NCBI RefSeq assembly: GCF_900116225.1
Contig: NZ_FOZZ01000007.1
Location: 186,001 to 250,000 of the forward strand
Direction of reading: 5' to 3'
Length of the DNA: 64,000 bases
DNA from: Sphingobacterium wenxiniae
Lineage (GTDB): Bacteria; Bacteroidota; Bacteroidia; Sphingobacteriales; Sphingobacteriaceae
Part shown: positions 1 to 47,239 of the stretch, piece after piece
Numbering within the stretch: position 1 is the first letter of the stretch
Layout of the letters: each line of letters starts with the position of its first letter
Notes under the pieces: model-generated
What the model was told of the DNA's origin: nothing
The model's input: the letters and a program-made list of their open reading frames with translations, nothing else
Database searches by the model: none
Made by a program: the position numbers and the translations under genes

Positions 1-578
1 GGGAAATAATCATCATATACTTCACCTATTGTTTCAGAAGTAATATCCCCTGCTTCTGTTGTGATAACTGGAATATTTCCCCATAACCGTACCATATCAA
101 AAAGAACCATAGCACGGAAGATCTTAGCTTCTGCTTTCAACTGTTGGCGCTCAGCTGTAGACAACGTATTATCTGCAACATCATCAATATTTACTATCAA
201 GCGGTTAGCCCGCGCCACATCTTCCATATAACGATTCCAGTCACGACTTAAAACAGAGTTGGAGCCTTCAATTGCATTATTTTCAAACGGCAAAACCTCT
301 GCTCCAGTCGTCCCTGCGTAAGCATTATCTGCATGCACATCAGCAATCAATAACAAATCCATGTACCAATGCTCTTGTCTATCACGCATCTGGTTATAAA
401 GCGTGGTCATATGACTTAGCACAGCAGCCTTATCTTTAAAAGCCACGTATTCCCCTTCTTCATTTACACCCTCCGTCACATCAGAGTATGTATCTAAAGG
501 ATCTTTATCTAAGGAACAACTGAACAACACTGCCAAACTGCACAGCATTGCGGTTGTATATATTATATATCTTTTCAT
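1..578 (-). CDS. SusD/RagB-family outer-membrane lipoprotein, 3' part cut off by window edge
   Basis: The reading frame starts at ATG 578 and runs off the left edge, leaving about 192 residues. The start is a lipoprotein signal peptide ending in an LFSC-type lipobox (MKRYIIYTTAML then CSLAVLFSCS), followed by the helical N-terminal part of SusD/RagB proteins (YMDLLLIADVHADNAY, then RQQLKAEAKIFRAMVLFDMVR, a typical TPR-like SusD helix pair). SusD proteins are surface lipoproteins that cap a SusC transporter and bind the glycan. The gene begins 18 nt after the stop of the SusC gene upstream, so the two form a susCD operon. The substrate cannot be told from this fragment. Confidence 0.9.
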   Translation of the reverse strand, partial: MKRYIIYTTAMLCSLAVLFSCSLDKDPLDTYSDVTEGVNEEGEYVAFKDKAAVLSHMTTLYNQMRDRQEHWYMDLLLIADVHADNAYAGTTGAEVLPFENNAIEGSNSVLSRDWNRYMEDVARANRLIVNIDDVADNTLSTAERQQLKAEAKIFRAMVLFDMVRLWGNIPVITTEAGDITSETIGEVYDDYF

Positions 579-596
579 GATCTTCACTTTATCTGT

Positions 597-3569
597 TTAA
601 AACTCAAGACTTAACCCAACAACAAACGAACGACTCTGCGGATAGGTTCCCCAATCGATCCCTTGCACAGCACCATTTCCTCCCCATTGGTTGACTTCTG
701 GATCTAAGCCCGTATATTTTGTCAACGTTAGGATATTGCTGACCGACACGAAAGGTTGCAACTTGCGTACACCAATACGAGACAAGCTACTCGTAGGAAT
801 ATCGTAAGACAAGGAAACATTCTTTAATCGCAAGAAGCTTCCATCTTCTACAAAATAGGTAGAGTTCTTTATGTCAAATCCTGCTTTTGGAATAAACGTT
901 TCTTGTCCGGGCACACGCCATCTTTCCAAGACACGTGTAGATTGGTTCCTACCACTATACATGCCTTCCGTTTCGATACGCGAGGCATTAAAGATGTCGT
1001 TGCCGTAAGAACCTTGAAGGAATACGCTCAGGTTAAAACCTTTGTAGCTAAAGTTATTCGTCATACCGAATATAAAATCTGGATTAGGGTCACCGATATA
1101 TGTTCTATCGGAAGACGAAATCTTACCGTCATTATTCAAATCACGATAATTCAGTTCACCAGTCTCTGGATTCACACCATCACTGATATAGCCAAAGAAA
1201 CCACCTAAAGACCGTCCCGGTTCGTTGCGTACCACATCTTCATTGACTACCTCAGAAGTGCGTGCCGTGTTATAGATTTTCTGCAATTCCAGTTTCTCTA
1301 AACGGTTGCGGTTGAAAGAAATATTGAAATCCGTAGACCATTGTAATACCTTCTCAATATTCTTACTGTTTACATTGACCTCAAATCCGCGATTGCTCAT
1401 CTCGCCTTCATTACGCACAATGTTGTTAGCCGCAGCAGCTCCTGCAGGCAGGCTAACATACATCAGCATATCACGCGTATATTTATGGTAGTAATCCAAG
1501 TTTACGTTCAAACGATTGTTGAAAGCCGAAAAATCGAGTCCGATATTTGTCTGTCTTGTTGTTTCCCAGCGCAAGTCAGGTGTTCTTAGATTCGCTTGGG
1601 TAATCGTCGGCAACGCATTTTCCTGTCCTGTGACGAACCACTGTATCCGATTGATGTTATAGCGTTGCAAATAGGCATAATCACCTACACCAGATTGGTT
1701 CCCGGTCTCACCCCAACCACCGCGGATTTTCAAATCGTTTAGCCATGACACATCCGAAAGGAAATCTTCAGCAGACAAACGCCAAGCGGCCGATACAGAA
1801 GGGAAAATTCCCCAACGATGATCCGGGTGCAATTTAGAAGAACCATCCGCACGTAAATTAGCTGTAACCAAATATTTACTGTCAAAATTATAGGAAGCAC
1901 GACCAAAATAAGACATAATAGCCCACTGAGATGCTCCCGAACCTGTACCTGTCCAAGAAATTTTGTTCGCGGCATTTAAAGTTTCTATCAGGTCATTTCT
2001 ATAATGCGAACCGTTTATCCAGCTATTGTGATAATCAGAGCTGGTATACGAAGTACCGCCCATCACCTCCAGATTATGTAGACCAAACGATTCATTGTAA
2101 GTCAAGACATTATCAAAAGTGATAACTGTATTTGTATTTCGGTTATCCGAACCTTCGCCATATTGATTTCTACCCCAGGAAGTGGACAATGGATCCAAGA
2201 AAGTTGTTGACACTGCATTTCTTCTGTCCAATGCGAATGAAGTCTTAAAATTCAGTGATGGCAAAAATTGGACTGTTGCACTTCCCGCGCCCACCAATCT
2301 GTTTTCTCTGTTTTTATTATTCTGCGTACGAGCCATGTTTTCCAATGGGCTGGTAATATTTACTCCATAAAAATTAGAATAAAATTGCCCTGGATTAGCC
2401 TCGTCCCAGATTGGCGCATAACTTGGTGTGTTGATGACAGACAATACCACACCGCCACGGTTAGCGCCTTGACCAGTAATAATACCATTCCCGTTGTAAT
2501 CCGAATAAGAGAAATTCGCGTTGACCCTTAACCAATCACGAACCTTGTTCTCGACATTTGCTCTAAAGTTATAGCGCTTGTAGAAAGAGGTGTTGATAAT
2601 ACCTTTTTCGTTCAGGTAACCTCCAGATAGAAAATACCTCAACTTCTCTGTTCCATCGGAAATGGACACCTGATAGTTCTGCAATTGGCCTGTTTTAAAA
2701 GTTTCGTCAAACCAATTGGTCTTGTCTGTTAATCCCGCAGGCAGGTTTACCAAGCCGATTTCATCTTGTAGTTCTTTGTATTGTTGTGCATTTAAGGACG
2801 CTATCTCACTGGTAATACGGTTTTGAGTAGTCTGTACATTGAAAGCAATTTTTGCATCGCCAACTTTCCCTTGTTTAGTCGTAATCAAGACCACACCATT
2901 CGCCGCACGTGAACCGTAAATTGCAGCCGACGAAGCATCTTTCAATACTTGCATATCCGCAATATCATTAGGAGAAAGGAAATTCAGGTTATCAACAGGT
3001 ACACCATCGACCACATACAAAGGATCATTACTTCCGTTGAATGAAGTCGTACCACGGATACGGATAGAGGTTTCTCCACCCGGTGCGCCGTTGGGCTGTA
3101 TTACGGAAACACCAGCTGCTCGCCCTTGAATCAACTGACCTGCCGATACGATAGGGCGCTCGTTCATATCTTCCACCGAAACCGAGGAAATAGCCGTGGT
3201 TACATCCTTACGTTTCACTGAACCGTACCCGATTACCACCACATCTTCCAACGTAGACGACGAGGATGTCAACTGAAAATGTAAAGAGCTTCCATCAGCA
3301 ACTAAGCGTTGACTATCGTAACCGATAAACGTAGCGATAATGGTGGCATTCTTAGCCACTTGCTGTAAAGTAAAACTTCCGTCGACAGCAGACGAAGTAC
3401 TCTGGGACGTACCCAATACAGTAATTGTTGCTCCCGATACGGGTTCATTCGTTTGTGCATCTGTTATCCTCCCTGTCACGGTGATGCTTTCTTGTGCAAA
3501 AACATTGACTTGCAAAAGAAGCATGACAAGAAATATAAGATGCCGCATCATTTTTGTAGAAAATGCCAT
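597..3569 (-). CDS. SusC/RagA-family TonB-linked outer-membrane receptor
   Basis: A 990-residue TonB-dependent transporter. Residues 1-25 are a signal peptide ending in NVFAQ. Residues about 28-112 form a carboxypeptidase-regulatory-like beta-sandwich (VTGRITDAQTNEPVSGATI), followed by a TonB-box-like segment EDVVVIGYG, the plug domain (IQGRAAGVSV, IRIRGTTSF, PLYVVDGVP, VLKDASSAAIYGSRAANGV) and the 22-strand barrel, ending in an aromatic residue (LSLEF) as usual for barrel insertion. It is the first gene of a susCD pair with the SusD fragment downstream. A DUF6377 regulator lies just upstream on the same strand and may control it; no ECF sigma or anti-sigma gene is present. The family is certain. 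The transported ligand is unknown. Confidence 0.95.
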   Translation of the reverse strand: MAFSTKMMRHLIFLVMLLLQVNVFAQESITVTGRITDAQTNEPVSGATITVLGTSQSTSSAVDGSFTLQQVAKNATIIATFIGYDSQRLVADGSSLHFQLTSSSSTLEDVVVIGYGSVKRKDVTTAISSVSVEDMNERPIVSAGQLIQGRAAGVSVIQPNGAPGGETSIRIRGTTSFNGSNDPLYVVDGVPVDNLNFLSPNDIADMQVLKDASSAAIYGSRAANGVVLITTKQGKVGDAKIAFNVQTTQNRITSEIASLNAQQYKELQDEIGLVNLPAGLTDKTNWFDETFKTGQLQNYQVSISDGTEKLRYFLSGGYLNEKGIINTSFYKRYNFRANVENKVRDWLRVNANFSYSDYNGNGIITGQGANRGGVVLSVINTPSYAPIWDEANPGQFYSNFYGVNITSPLENMARTQNNKNRENRLVGAGSATVQFLPSLNFKTSFALDRRNAVSTTFLDPLSTSWGRNQYGEGSDNRNTNTVITFDNVLTYNESFGLHNLEVMGGTSYTSSDYHNSWINGSHYRNDLIETLNAANKISWTGTGSGASQWAIMSYFGRASYNFDSKYLVTANLRADGSSKLHPDHRWGIFPSVSAAWRLSAEDFLSDVSWLNDLKIRGGWGETGNQSGVGDYAYLQRYNINRIQWFVTGQENALPTITQANLRTPDLRWETTRQTNIGLDFSAFNNRLNVNLDYYHKYTRDMLMYVSLPAGAAAANNIVRNEGEMSNRGFEVNVNSKNIEKVLQWSTDFNISFNRNRLEKLELQKIYNTARTSEVVNEDVVRNEPGRSLGGFFGYISDGVNPETGELNYRDLNNDGKISSSDRTYIGDPNPDFIFGMTNNFSYKGFNLSVFLQGSYGNDIFNASRIETEGMYSGRNQSTRVLERWRVPGQETFIPKAGFDIKNSTYFVEDGSFLRLKNVSLSYDIPTSSLSRIGVRKLQPFVSVSNILTLTKYTGLDPEVNQWGGNGAVQGIDWGTYPQSRSFVVGLSLEF

Positions 3570-18348: not shown

Positions 18349-19079
18349 AGGTAGAAGAAAGTAAATACGAAGACCCAAACTAAGTCTACAAAGTGCCAGT
18401 ATAAACCTACTTTTTCAATCATTAGATAAGTACCTCTGCGCTCAAACGTATTGTTCAAAGTCATGCAAAGCACAATAATGTTCAACAGGATACCAATCGA
18501 TACGTGGAATCCGTGGAAACCAGTAATGGTAAAGAATAAGTTAGAAAACTGTAATGCAGCGGTATAGGAAATATCCTTCGTAAAATATGGTGCCAACGCC
18601 TCTACTATGGCTTCTCCTTCTAAACCTGTAGCAGGGTTGCGTCCAAACCAAAATCCTTGATGATGTAAGTGTGTCCATTCAATAGCCTGACAGCCAACGA
18701 AAGCCAAACCACCTAAAATCGTCCACAACATCCATTTTACAACCTCATTTTTTTGATTTCTATGACCAGCATCTACCGCCAATACCATCGTTACAGAAGA
18801 CATAATGAGGATAAAGGTCATGATACCCACGAACACCAAAGGCTGTCCAGACTCTGCAATTCCTGGGATAGATTGGAAAATCTTGTCCGCATCGATCCAA
18901 GTCGGCTGAGCAAATTTCTGCGCTCCGTAGTAAATCAAGAATGCAGAAAATGTAAATGCATCCGATACCAAGAAAAACCACATCATGATTTTTCCATACT
19001 CTAAATTCCAAGGCGACTTACCACCACTCCAAGGGCCGTCTTTAACCTTATCCAATTGCGATACAGTTGTTGTACTCAT
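18342..19079 (-). CDS. ctaE: Cytochrome c oxidase subunit III
   Basis: 245 residues with several membrane helices. COX3 family features: WNLEYGKIMMWFFLVSDAFTF near the N-terminus, the ITGFHGFHVSIGILLNI segment (conserved histidines) and the C-terminal GLYWHFVDLVWVFVFTFFYL. Subunit III binds subunit I, stabilises the complex and helps proton uptake. It is 9 nt after another, shorter COX3-family gene; both appear intact. Tandem COX3-type genes occur in other Bacteroidota oxidase operons. Confidence 0.93.
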   Translation of the reverse strand: MSTTTVSQLDKVKDGPWSGGKSPWNLEYGKIMMWFFLVSDAFTFSAFLIYYGAQKFAQPTWIDADKIFQSIPGIAESGQPLVFVGIMTFILIMSSVTMVLAVDAGHRNQKNEVVKWMLWTILGGLAFVGCQAIEWTHLHHQGFWFGRNPATGLEGEAIVEALAPYFTKDISYTAALQFSNLFFTITGFHGFHVSIGILLNIIVLCMTLNNTFERRGTYLMIEKVGLYWHFVDLVWVFVFTFFYLI

Positions 19080-19088
19080 TTTTTACTA

Positions 19089-19673
19089 TTATTGATTCAA
19101 AAGTAAGAAAACATAAATATAAATCCATAGAACATCGAGAAAATGCCAAAAAATAGTGGCCAAATTCATTCGAAATTTATTGTCAGGGAAAGGGATAGGC
19201 TTCGCCGCCCCAATATAGCACCTGACCAATACAATAAGTCCTGCAATAATATGCGCTAAGTGCATACCCGTGAAGACAAATAAGAACGATTGTGAAGCAT
19301 TGTTATTTACAAAATAGATGCCCCGGTCCGTAAACACAGACCACGAATGCAACTGCAAAGCAAAGAAAGCAATACCCAATATAATCGTGAACAATAACAA
19401 CACCCGTTGCTTTTTCAATTGCTCCAACTTAGCCGCCTGATACGCCAAATGCAACGTCAAGCTACTCAATACAATAACAATTGTACTGTATATAAACGTA
19501 TTGGGCAATAATGTCTTGATACCTTTATCCACCCCACTTGCCGTATATACAATAAAACCACTCGACAGGGCTGCAAACATCATAAACATACCAATCATGC
19601 CTAACACTAAGTTAAACTTCTTGGCCTTGCGTGATTGTACAAGCTCCTCTGTCATATATTCCGTATCCACCAT
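19089..19673 (-). CDS. Short cytochrome c oxidase subunit III-family protein
   Basis: 194 residues with five membrane helices, the size of the five-helix COX3 variant (CyoC/CtaE-like). Motifs: KFNLVLGMIGMFMMFAALSS, FVFTGMHLAHIIAGLIVLV with the conserved GMHLAH, and the ending LATIFWHFLDVLWIYIYVFL. It ends in the typical WHFLDVLW motif of subunit III. It lies between ctaB (6 nt upstream) and the longer subunit III gene. The two may be alternative or joint partners of subunit I. Confidence 0.9.
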   Translation of the reverse strand: MVDTEYMTEELVQSRKAKKFNLVLGMIGMFMMFAALSSGFIVYTASGVDKGIKTLLPNTFIYSTIVIVLSSLTLHLAYQAAKLEQLKKQRVLLLFTIILGIAFFALQLHSWSVFTDRGIYFVNNNASQSFLFVFTGMHLAHIIAGLIVLVRCYIGAAKPIPFPDNKFRMNLATIFWHFLDVLWIYIYVFLLLNQ

Positions 19674-45920: not shown

Positions 45921-46652
45921 TTAAACAAAACCTCCAATAATCGCTGCGGGATGTAATTCTTTTGTGTTGCGCACAAAATTTCGGTTTCCCATTTTATCGC
46001 TGTATATTATGTTTAGACCTACTAAGATTATATCTACCTGTTGTTTTGGGATGTCAAAAATAAGTTGCTGTTCGGGAATGACTTCCTCTTGTCCTTGGCC
46101 TGTATAGATCTCTATTTCTTGGGTTCCAAGAGGAAGGAATGCCCCATAAGTAAAACCAATGGTTTCTACTTGTATGGTGACATAATAGCAGTCTTTTGGA
46201 ATATAGAGATGCTGGTATCGTTGGAAAGCCGGAAAATGTACAGATACCTGCTTATCATTGCTTATGCTTAGAATGGGATCGACATACATATAATCATGCA
46301 GGTGACAATTCCTATTGAACTGGAAACCAATTAGCCTATTTAAGTTACCGGATTCTATTGTATTTAAACCCGGACGGGGTTTGGGCGTAGACCTCATGAC
46401 ACGTCGGATATGTTGTATCAAACGGTTGTGCATTTTATCATCATGCAACTGCATATGGGTGTTAACAAATGCCTGTCTGAGAAGTGCTCCCATGGAGCTG
46501 CTATAACCGAAATCCTCCGCTGCAGCTTTGGTTGATTTCGATTGCTTAATCTTACGTCCCGGTTTAGTCTGTACAACTTGCTGATTGCCGACCTTGCGAT
46601 TGACCAAGTTCCCAACTTGGCCCCTCAAAAATCCATTTTTTACGATAGCCAT
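45921..46652 (-). CDS. DUF6266-like Bacteroidota protein, function unknown
   Basis: 243 residues, no signal peptide or membrane helix. The N-terminus AIVKNGFLRGQVGNLVNRKV with VVQTKPGRKIKQSKSTKAAA resembles the GxLGGFxGKVG...RSxP start of DUF6266 proteins; the similarity is by eye and the family assignment is uncertain. A basic N-terminal third is followed by a beta-rich C-terminal half (VSVHFPAFQRYQHLYIPKD, YYVTIQVETIGFTYGAFLPL, DIILVGLNIIYSDKM). It ends against the GH20 terminator. A -7/-33 pair lies at 46752-46782, and directly upstream of that is a 200-bp array with an 11-nt period. Related proteins in this family are of unknown function. Confidence 0.6.
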   Translation of the reverse strand: MAIVKNGFLRGQVGNLVNRKVGNQQVVQTKPGRKIKQSKSTKAAAEDFGYSSSMGALLRQAFVNTHMQLHDDKMHNRLIQHIRRVMRSTPKPRPGLNTIESGNLNRLIGFQFNRNCHLHDYMYVDPILSISNDKQVSVHFPAFQRYQHLYIPKDCYYVTIQVETIGFTYGAFLPLGTQEIEIYTGQGQEEVIPEQQLIFDIPKQQVDIILVGLNIIYSDKMGNRNFVRNTKELHPAAIIGGFV

Positions 46653-46751
46653 AGCATAAAATTAGAAATTTATAGTGCTGAAAAACAAGTTTTTGTGAAT
46701 TTTTACCAATATGAAAACCGGTGTTCGACAAGGCATTGCAAAATTGAAAAT

Positions 46752-46782
46752 CAAAAGTGGACTTGTTTTATGAAAATGGCAA
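46752..46782 (-). promoter_or_regulatory. Possible promoter of the DUF6266-like gene
   Basis: Minus strand: TTG (46780-46782), 20 nt, then CACTTTTG (46752-46759), one mismatch to TAnnTTTG. It would start transcription near 46745. The 11-nt array begins 22 nt upstream of its -33 element. Confidence 0.4.
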
Positions 46783-46804: not shown

Positions 46805-47013
46805 TTCGACACTTCTTCGAAGAGTCTTCGGTACTGCTTTAGGATAGCTTCGGCTTAGGTTCGGTAATGCTTATGGGTGCGACCGAGGTTCCCGTGCTGT
46901 TCTTACCCCGTATGTCCATGTTAATACTCGGAGTCAACACGGACTCACCTCGGACTTACCATGGACTCATCTACTCCCTGTCTCGAACCATTCCCGAAGC
47001 AGTCTCAAAGATA
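46805..47013. repeat. Degenerate tandem array with an exact 11-nt period
   Basis: Block A reads in 11-nt steps: TTCGACACTTC, TTCGAAGAGTC, TTCGGTACTGC, TTTAGGATAGC, TTCGGCTTAGG, TTCGGTAATGC, TTATGGGTGCG, ACCGAGGTTCC (46805-46892). After three weak units, block B continues in the same 11-nt register with the CGG one base later: ACTCGGAGTCA, ACACGGACTCA, CCTCGGACTTA, CCATGGACTCA, TCTACTCCCTG, TCTCGAACCAT, TCCCGAAGCAG, TCTCAAAGATA (46926-47013). The period is not a multiple of three, so this is not a coding repeat. Confidence 0.85.
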
Positions 47014-47128: not shown

Positions 47129-47160
47129 TCACTCTGAGGCTTCGACAAGCTCAGTATGAC
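47129..47160. repeat. Short dispersed-type repeat around CTTCGACAAGCTCAG
   Basis: TCACTCTGAGGCTTCGACAA followed by GCTCAGTATGAC; CTGAGGCTT and AAGCTCAG can pair. The word CTTCGACAAGCTCAG is a common dispersed intergenic sequence in Bacteroidota genomes. Confidence 0.5.
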
Positions 47161-47239
47161 AAAAAGACTTGAGAATGTACAAAACAACACATTAATAAAT
47201 TGTTCAGAAGTAAGGCAAGAAATTTCTATTAATCTGCGT

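Follow-up and report, generated by a model that had tools for sequence, protein, structure and literature searches.

An 11-nucleotide phased array upstream of DUF6266-like genes in Sphingobacteriaceae, a probable control element

A 64,000-nucleotide stretch of the Sphingobacterium wenxiniae genome (contig NZ_FOZZ01000007.1, positions 186,001 to 250,000; here called the window) carries about 19 short units spaced 11 nt apart, upstream of a gene resembling the DUF6266 family. What is this array, does it belong to the gene, and which protein might read it? A preliminary description had proposed that array and gene form a self-contained unit (i.e., a binding platform and its own protein, or a mobile module). 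Our analyses indicate that the array is probably an undescribed control element rather than a product of chance, and we assign a probability of roughly one-half to the reading that it serves the DUF6266-like transcription unit as a cis-regulatory platform. No description of 11-nt arrays in this group was found in the open-access journal literature. The features of the locus are as follows.

46805 to 47013, no strand assigned: 11-nt phased array of about 19 units, defined by lag-11 periodicity and CG phase
46805 to 46892, plus strand: left block, TTCG/TTCGG word, CG phase 2 (mod 11)
46926 to 46969, plus strand: middle block, CGGACTCA word, CG phase 3
46981 to 47003, plus strand: right end, CGAA word (at 46984 and 46995), inverted relative to the left block, CG phase 3
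46768 to 46776, minus strand: TTTTCATAA box, found at -121 to -124 in many relatives
46657 to 46688, minus strand: putative core promoter of the Bacteroidota type (TTG ... TAnnTTT) that ends within a few bases of the ATG and leaves almost no leader
45921 to 46652, minus strand: DUF6266-like gene (243 amino acids), predicted N-terminal helical part and Ig/Fn3-like beta-sandwich

Periodicity and layout of the array

The fraction of matching nucleotides within positions 46805 to 47013 was 0.490 at lag 11, 0.417 at lag 22, and 0.369 at lag 33 (autocorrelation). Dinucleotide shuffles of the same DNA gave a mean of 0.251 at lag 11 (standard deviation, 0.031); the top value at any lag from 5 to 44 was 0.40, and none of the 2,000 shuffles reached 0.490. 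The lag-11 peak that the preliminary description had expected to rise above shuffled controls was thus recovered (0.49 versus a mean of 0.25). The array is the strongest lag-11 stretch in the window, and no second 150-nt stretch with a value of at least 0.48 was found in 464 kb of the 3.84-Mb genome (i.e., 400 kb taken from spaced places plus the window). The second-best stretch of the window (0.47 over 150 nt) lies at positions 19025 to 19212.

The array contains 14 CG dinucleotides, 6 of which are in phase 2 (46807 to 46884) and 5 in phase 3 (46929 to 46995), a significant concentration (R = 0.72; P = 0.00016). The phase slips by one base in the middle of the array, between 46884 and 46929. 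The earlier claim of about 19 units in unbroken 11-nt register over 209 bp therefore holds for the periodicity and fails for the continuity; the one-base shift between the halves, which the same description had half noted, is borne out. A recognizable word is present in only about 12 of the 19 units, and the words first proposed (TTCGGnnnnGC on the left and nnnCGGACTCA on the right) are corrected here to TTCG on the left, CGGACTCA in the middle, and CGAA at the right end, so that the layout is partly inverted. Tandem Repeats Finder (TRF) reported only a 43-bp piece (3.7 copies), and the units have only the core in common, in contrast to the near-identical tandem units of a minisatellite. Folding of the array as a DNA hairpin was no better than that of shuffled sequences (z = -0.46; DNA parameters), and Rfam returned only subthreshold chance matches. 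A sequence adjoining the array (positions 47129 to 47163; GTCACTCTGAGGCTTCGACAAGCTCAGTATGACA) includes a TTCG unit and resembles a palindromic repeat common in Bacteroidota.

A relaxed DNA turn is 10.5 bp rather than 11 bp. The 19 units would therefore present the same face to a bound protein, as had been suggested, only if the DNA were underwound or wrapped by protein.

Array, gene, and promoter across the family

The window protein gave no Pfam match up to an E value of 10 and fell short of the membership cutoff of PF19781 (DUF6266); no NCBIfam match or informative PHROG match was obtained. We also considered the N-terminal GxxGxVGN region and fold shared by PF19781 members as a second membership criterion. 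A profile of the window protein family aligned collinearly with PF19781 members over residues 1 to 113 (hhalign; E value, 8e-4; probability, 25%), which makes the label "DUF6266-like" reasonable but does not prove it. Weak paralog matches to the protein occur within its own genome. Its AlphaFold model (pLDDT, 85) consists of N-terminal helices and a beta-sandwich; in fold searches of the PDB and of viral models, TM-scores were low and all matches were to generic Ig/Fn3-like domains, with no DNA-binding match among them. Searches of plasmids for DUF6266-like proteins found none, and no relative was confirmed in viral contigs. Phage records yielded a single weak DUF6266-like match, in an 8-kb record with no 11-nt array upstream of the matching open reading frame (ORF). 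The 8-kb Caudoviricetes-labeled record OP209177.1 (locus L106) contains three tandem DUF6266-like ORFs (412 to 3499), a CHAP-like ORF, and a long ORF that is possibly a replication initiator; DUF6266 may have a connection with phages. No paper on DUF6266 was found in the open-access literature.

We then compared 34 loci with relatives of the window protein from Sphingobacterium and Parapedobacter. Lag 11 was the best of lags 7 to 18 within -500 to 0 of the gene at 33 of them (median, 0.475). Values near 0.32, i.e., background, were obtained in thirteen other bins between -3.9 and +3.6 kb. The neighboring genes vary between species. Among Pfam DUF6266 genes of the genus, lag 11 was raised upstream at most of 30 loci and usually not downstream; in other genera of the family, it was the best lag at 14 of 26 Pfam DUF6266 loci. 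The genome of origin itself carries arrays directly upstream of a Pfam DUF6266 gene (contig 12) and of a DUF6266-like gene (contig 8), and a fourth gene has only a weak trace of one. Window-type genes are present in 44 of 94 genomes; a Pfam DUF6266 gene accompanies them in 43 of these 44 genomes versus 23 of the 50 others, a comparison in which phylogeny is not controlled. In Sphingobacterium sp. SGR-19 (locus L161, 4001 to 4737), the window-type gene is broken into two frames, and in S. gobiense (L138) it has an in-frame stop; it is thus dispensable in some species.

On the basis of these sequence comparisons, the view that array and gene belong together is strongly supported. The link that the preliminary description had offered as conjecture recurs at 33 of 34 relatives and at most sampled Pfam DUF6266 genes of the genus, and arrays of this strength are not equally common elsewhere, as judged from the 464-kb sample and the thirteen flanking bins. 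Its notion of a self-contained unit is upheld insofar as window-type gene and array stay together among differing neighbors, and weakened insofar as arrays also occur without the gene.

The array lies upstream of the gene, although not directly so as first described: its end is about 152 bases before the start codon. Arrays at window-type loci span roughly -350 to -140 and are followed by putative promoters, recognized by consensus matches. Of 35 homologous loci, 32 retain a TAnnTT(T/C) box immediately ahead of the ATG, and 22 have a TTTTCATAA-like box between -220 and -50, mostly at -121 to -124. A Pfam group without TTCG arrays (L082 to L105) has TATGTTTG located 25 to 28 nt before ACCGGTA (-82 to -27; 14/14 loci). 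The ACCGGTA that follows TATGTTTG is often part of ATACCGGTAT, forming a second conserved motif pair before DUF6266 genes. Where a second DUF6266 gene follows in tandem, the gap is 63 to 86 nt and has no array; such gaps are too short for one, and the array thus goes with the transcription unit.

In the clearest arrays, a left half of about ten TTCGRSWnnnS units faces a right half made of the reverse-complement units, and a single 11-nt register of the CG (in TTCG on the left, in CGAA on the right) runs through all units and across the dyad in 21 of the 22 arrays examined. Other arrays use alternative words, i.e., GTACC/TACYAAAGAGG or CGGACTCA. Array words and sequences diverge strongly among loci, while the period and the position relative to the DUF6266 gene are retained. 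Comparison of orthologous TTCG arrays showed conservation of 89 to 98% at the CG positions versus 48 to 77% at most spacer positions, with internal indels of 11 nt, i.e., one unit. Conserved CG, variable spacers, and unit-length indels together are a signature of selection on phased sites. The arrays are thus direct repeats about one helical turn apart and under selection, as sought in a head-to-tail winged-helix operator, and the binding platform initially suggested is plausible given the conserved, phased CG core and indels that preserve the register.

Candidate readers and rival explanations

A common gene order is found in many Pfam DUF6266 cassettes: a LytTR-like membrane protein, an HTH_17 gene that ends just before the array, the array, and DUF6266. 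These are followed either by DUF5675 or by a CHAP endolysin-like protein with small membrane proteins. The LytTR-like domain forms the C-terminal end of the membrane protein (LytTR match in 5 of 12 regulators scanned). Four loci (L035, 4594 to 7848; L111; L114; and L116) have HTH_17, array, and DUF6266 followed by small membrane, CHAP endolysin-like, and lipoprotein-like proteins, an arrangement resembling a lysis module. The HTH type ...YYR...RHYYYL goes with TTCG arrays at 14 of 14 loci, while the TLYR/TFQR type goes with other array words at 5 of 5 (TTCG, 0/5); these loci are related, so that the counts overstate the evidence. A PDB sequence search with a cassette HTH protein gave nothing informative. 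At the window array, no HTH_17 gene adjoins and the locus has no LytTR gene; a winged-helix gene is variably present at window-type loci.

We infer a regulatory role of the following kind. Some 15 to 25 weak binding sites, one per 11 bp, would precede the core promoter; the clearest copies would have two runs of head-to-tail sites that meet, in one register, at the dyad between TTCG and CGAA. A small DNA-binding protein would oligomerize head to tail on the direct repeats and coat the array cooperatively, and the coated array would wrap or bend the promoter region, resulting in switch-like control. The best candidate reader, which we name tentatively, is the HTH_17 protein whose gene immediately precedes the array in many cassettes; it would act in trans at solo loci such as that in the window. 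The LytTR regulator, encoded in the same cassettes, is a second candidate. Arrays with the same words but no nearby DUF6266 gene, including those in long open frames before a TonB-receptor gene, count against the platform reading.

These orphan arrays, which were counted by pattern searches only, bear on the most serious rival. In this view, each array would be a copy of a REP- or MITE-like inverted-repeat element that is dispersed and copies itself; the phased units would be its internal structure, it would have been retained by chance before DUF6266, and regulation would be secondary. The array at L034 is 93% identical to that at L035 over 215 bp (ends ATTTCTTCG...CGAAGAAAT), with no similarity outside the array; it is a copy of the L035 array without flanks. 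In two genomes, arrays between unrelated genes are 84 to 92% alike over 63 to 110 bp to the array of a DUF6266-like gene. Dispersed TTCG copies with defined ends, as in MITE- or REP-like elements, therefore exist (L034/L035 and two other genomes), the window array lying outside this comparison. Several near-identical arrays per genome, and contigs that end inside or near arrays, also fit such an element; contigs C3, C7, C19, and C20 of genome G000 end in this manner, as expected if inverted repeats break the assembly. However, sequences differ strongly from locus to locus whereas position and period at the DUF6266 gene are kept, the phased core is under selection, and no transposase or target duplication was found. 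Moreover, the orphan array at L036 is what is left of a decayed cassette of HTH, array, and DUF6266, and some orphans are thus relics. We therefore regard a purely self-copying element as a minority possibility, although one to be taken seriously.

At other loci, long open frames that run into TonB-receptor or thioredoxin-like genes contain, in their 5' part, about 0.9 kb of TTCG, GTACC, and other blocks in 11-nt phase (L165, 3860 to 4830; L166 to L168; L171 to L174; L176; L184; and L037, 4882 to 5370). One frame has 0 stops versus 26 to 47 in the other two forward frames at 6 of 7 loci, and substitutions in these stop-free array frames are almost even over the three codon positions. The DNA or RNA of these arrays may be what matters while translation must pass through. 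The array might act as RNA, i.e., as part of a transcribed leader that folds into a long hairpin by pairing of its TTCG half with its CGAA half, and the stop-free frames would allow transcription and translation of the array at the TonB-receptor loci. A period of 11 bp fits one turn of A-form RNA better than B-form DNA, and left and right spacers are slightly more complementary across the dyad than shuffled pairings (393/924 versus 340 +/- 14). This excess comes mostly from the innermost units; the outer ones are not complementary beyond the core word. Given also that a putative core promoter separates array and gene at DUF6266 loci and that the window array folds no better than its shuffles, we consider the RNA leader improbable.

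Less probable still is the proposal that the DUF6266 protein itself binds the array as a self-contained platform and protein. Gene and array are inherited together among changing neighbors, but the model offers helices and a beta-sandwich with no DNA-binding match in the PDB or among viral models, a second gene in tandem comes without an array, arrays are found where the gene is absent, and the cassettes carry dedicated HTH and LytTR proteins, which are better candidate binders; this part of the preliminary description is not supported. A neutral minisatellite or chance periodicity, to which the degenerate window units and the lone 43-bp TRF piece might point, is contradicted by the shuffle test and the 464-kb background sample and refuted by the recurrence at 33 of 34 loci and the conservation of the core.

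Comparison with known systems

If the cis-regulatory platform is real, many Sphingobacteriaceae genes of unknown function share a visible control element, which would provide a handle on when such genes are used and what reads them. The long exact register and converging layout would represent an unusually extended form of filament-type gene control, and arrays before TonB-receptor genes hint that surface proteins and phage-like cassettes might be controlled together. More speculatively, there might be a family-wide, undescribed, mobile and modular operator system, in which 11-bp phased converging arrays with several core words, each with its own oligomerizing regulator, are copied as units and determine how TonB-receptor genes and DUF6266 cassettes, some of which include endolysin-like genes, are expressed.

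Plasmid iteron arrays are likewise phased direct repeats (22 bp is twice 11), but the arrays described here are chromosomal and upstream of a promoter, and no Rep gene or origin feature was seen. They resemble REP/BIME or MITE-like elements in being inverted repeats found at dispersed places, with at least one case of copying without the flanks, and differ from them in their 11-nt phased units, their fixed position before DUF6266 promoters, and the failure to find a mobilizing enzyme. Operators of LytTR response regulators are also direct repeats in promoter regions, and the cassettes carry LytTR proteins; however, known LytTR operators have few repeats rather than a 200-bp array, and the window locus is without a LytTR gene.

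The closest likeness is to the winged-helix operators of the BldC, Xis, and RdfS type. Lambda Xis oligomerizes head to tail on direct repeats. The small winged-helix protein BldC likewise coats direct repeats in head-to-tail fashion (PMC5859096); on smeA-sffA, its protomers are one DNA turn apart according to the summary in PMC11963761. The differences are considerable: 15 to 25 units rather than 2 to 4, an exact 11-nt period, a GC-containing core (TTCG, GTACC, or CGGACTCA) rather than AT-rich sites, and two runs converging at a dyad, with binding to the arrays putative. The published BldC site (AATTnnnnC; 9-bp repeats) has another word and another spacing. The shared features are many direct-repeat sites about one turn apart and, in many cassettes, an adjoining small HTH_17/MerR/excisionase-like gene. 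With the HTH_17 gene beside many arrays, the match between HTH type and array word, and the BldC precedent, we therefore favor an operator of the filament type.
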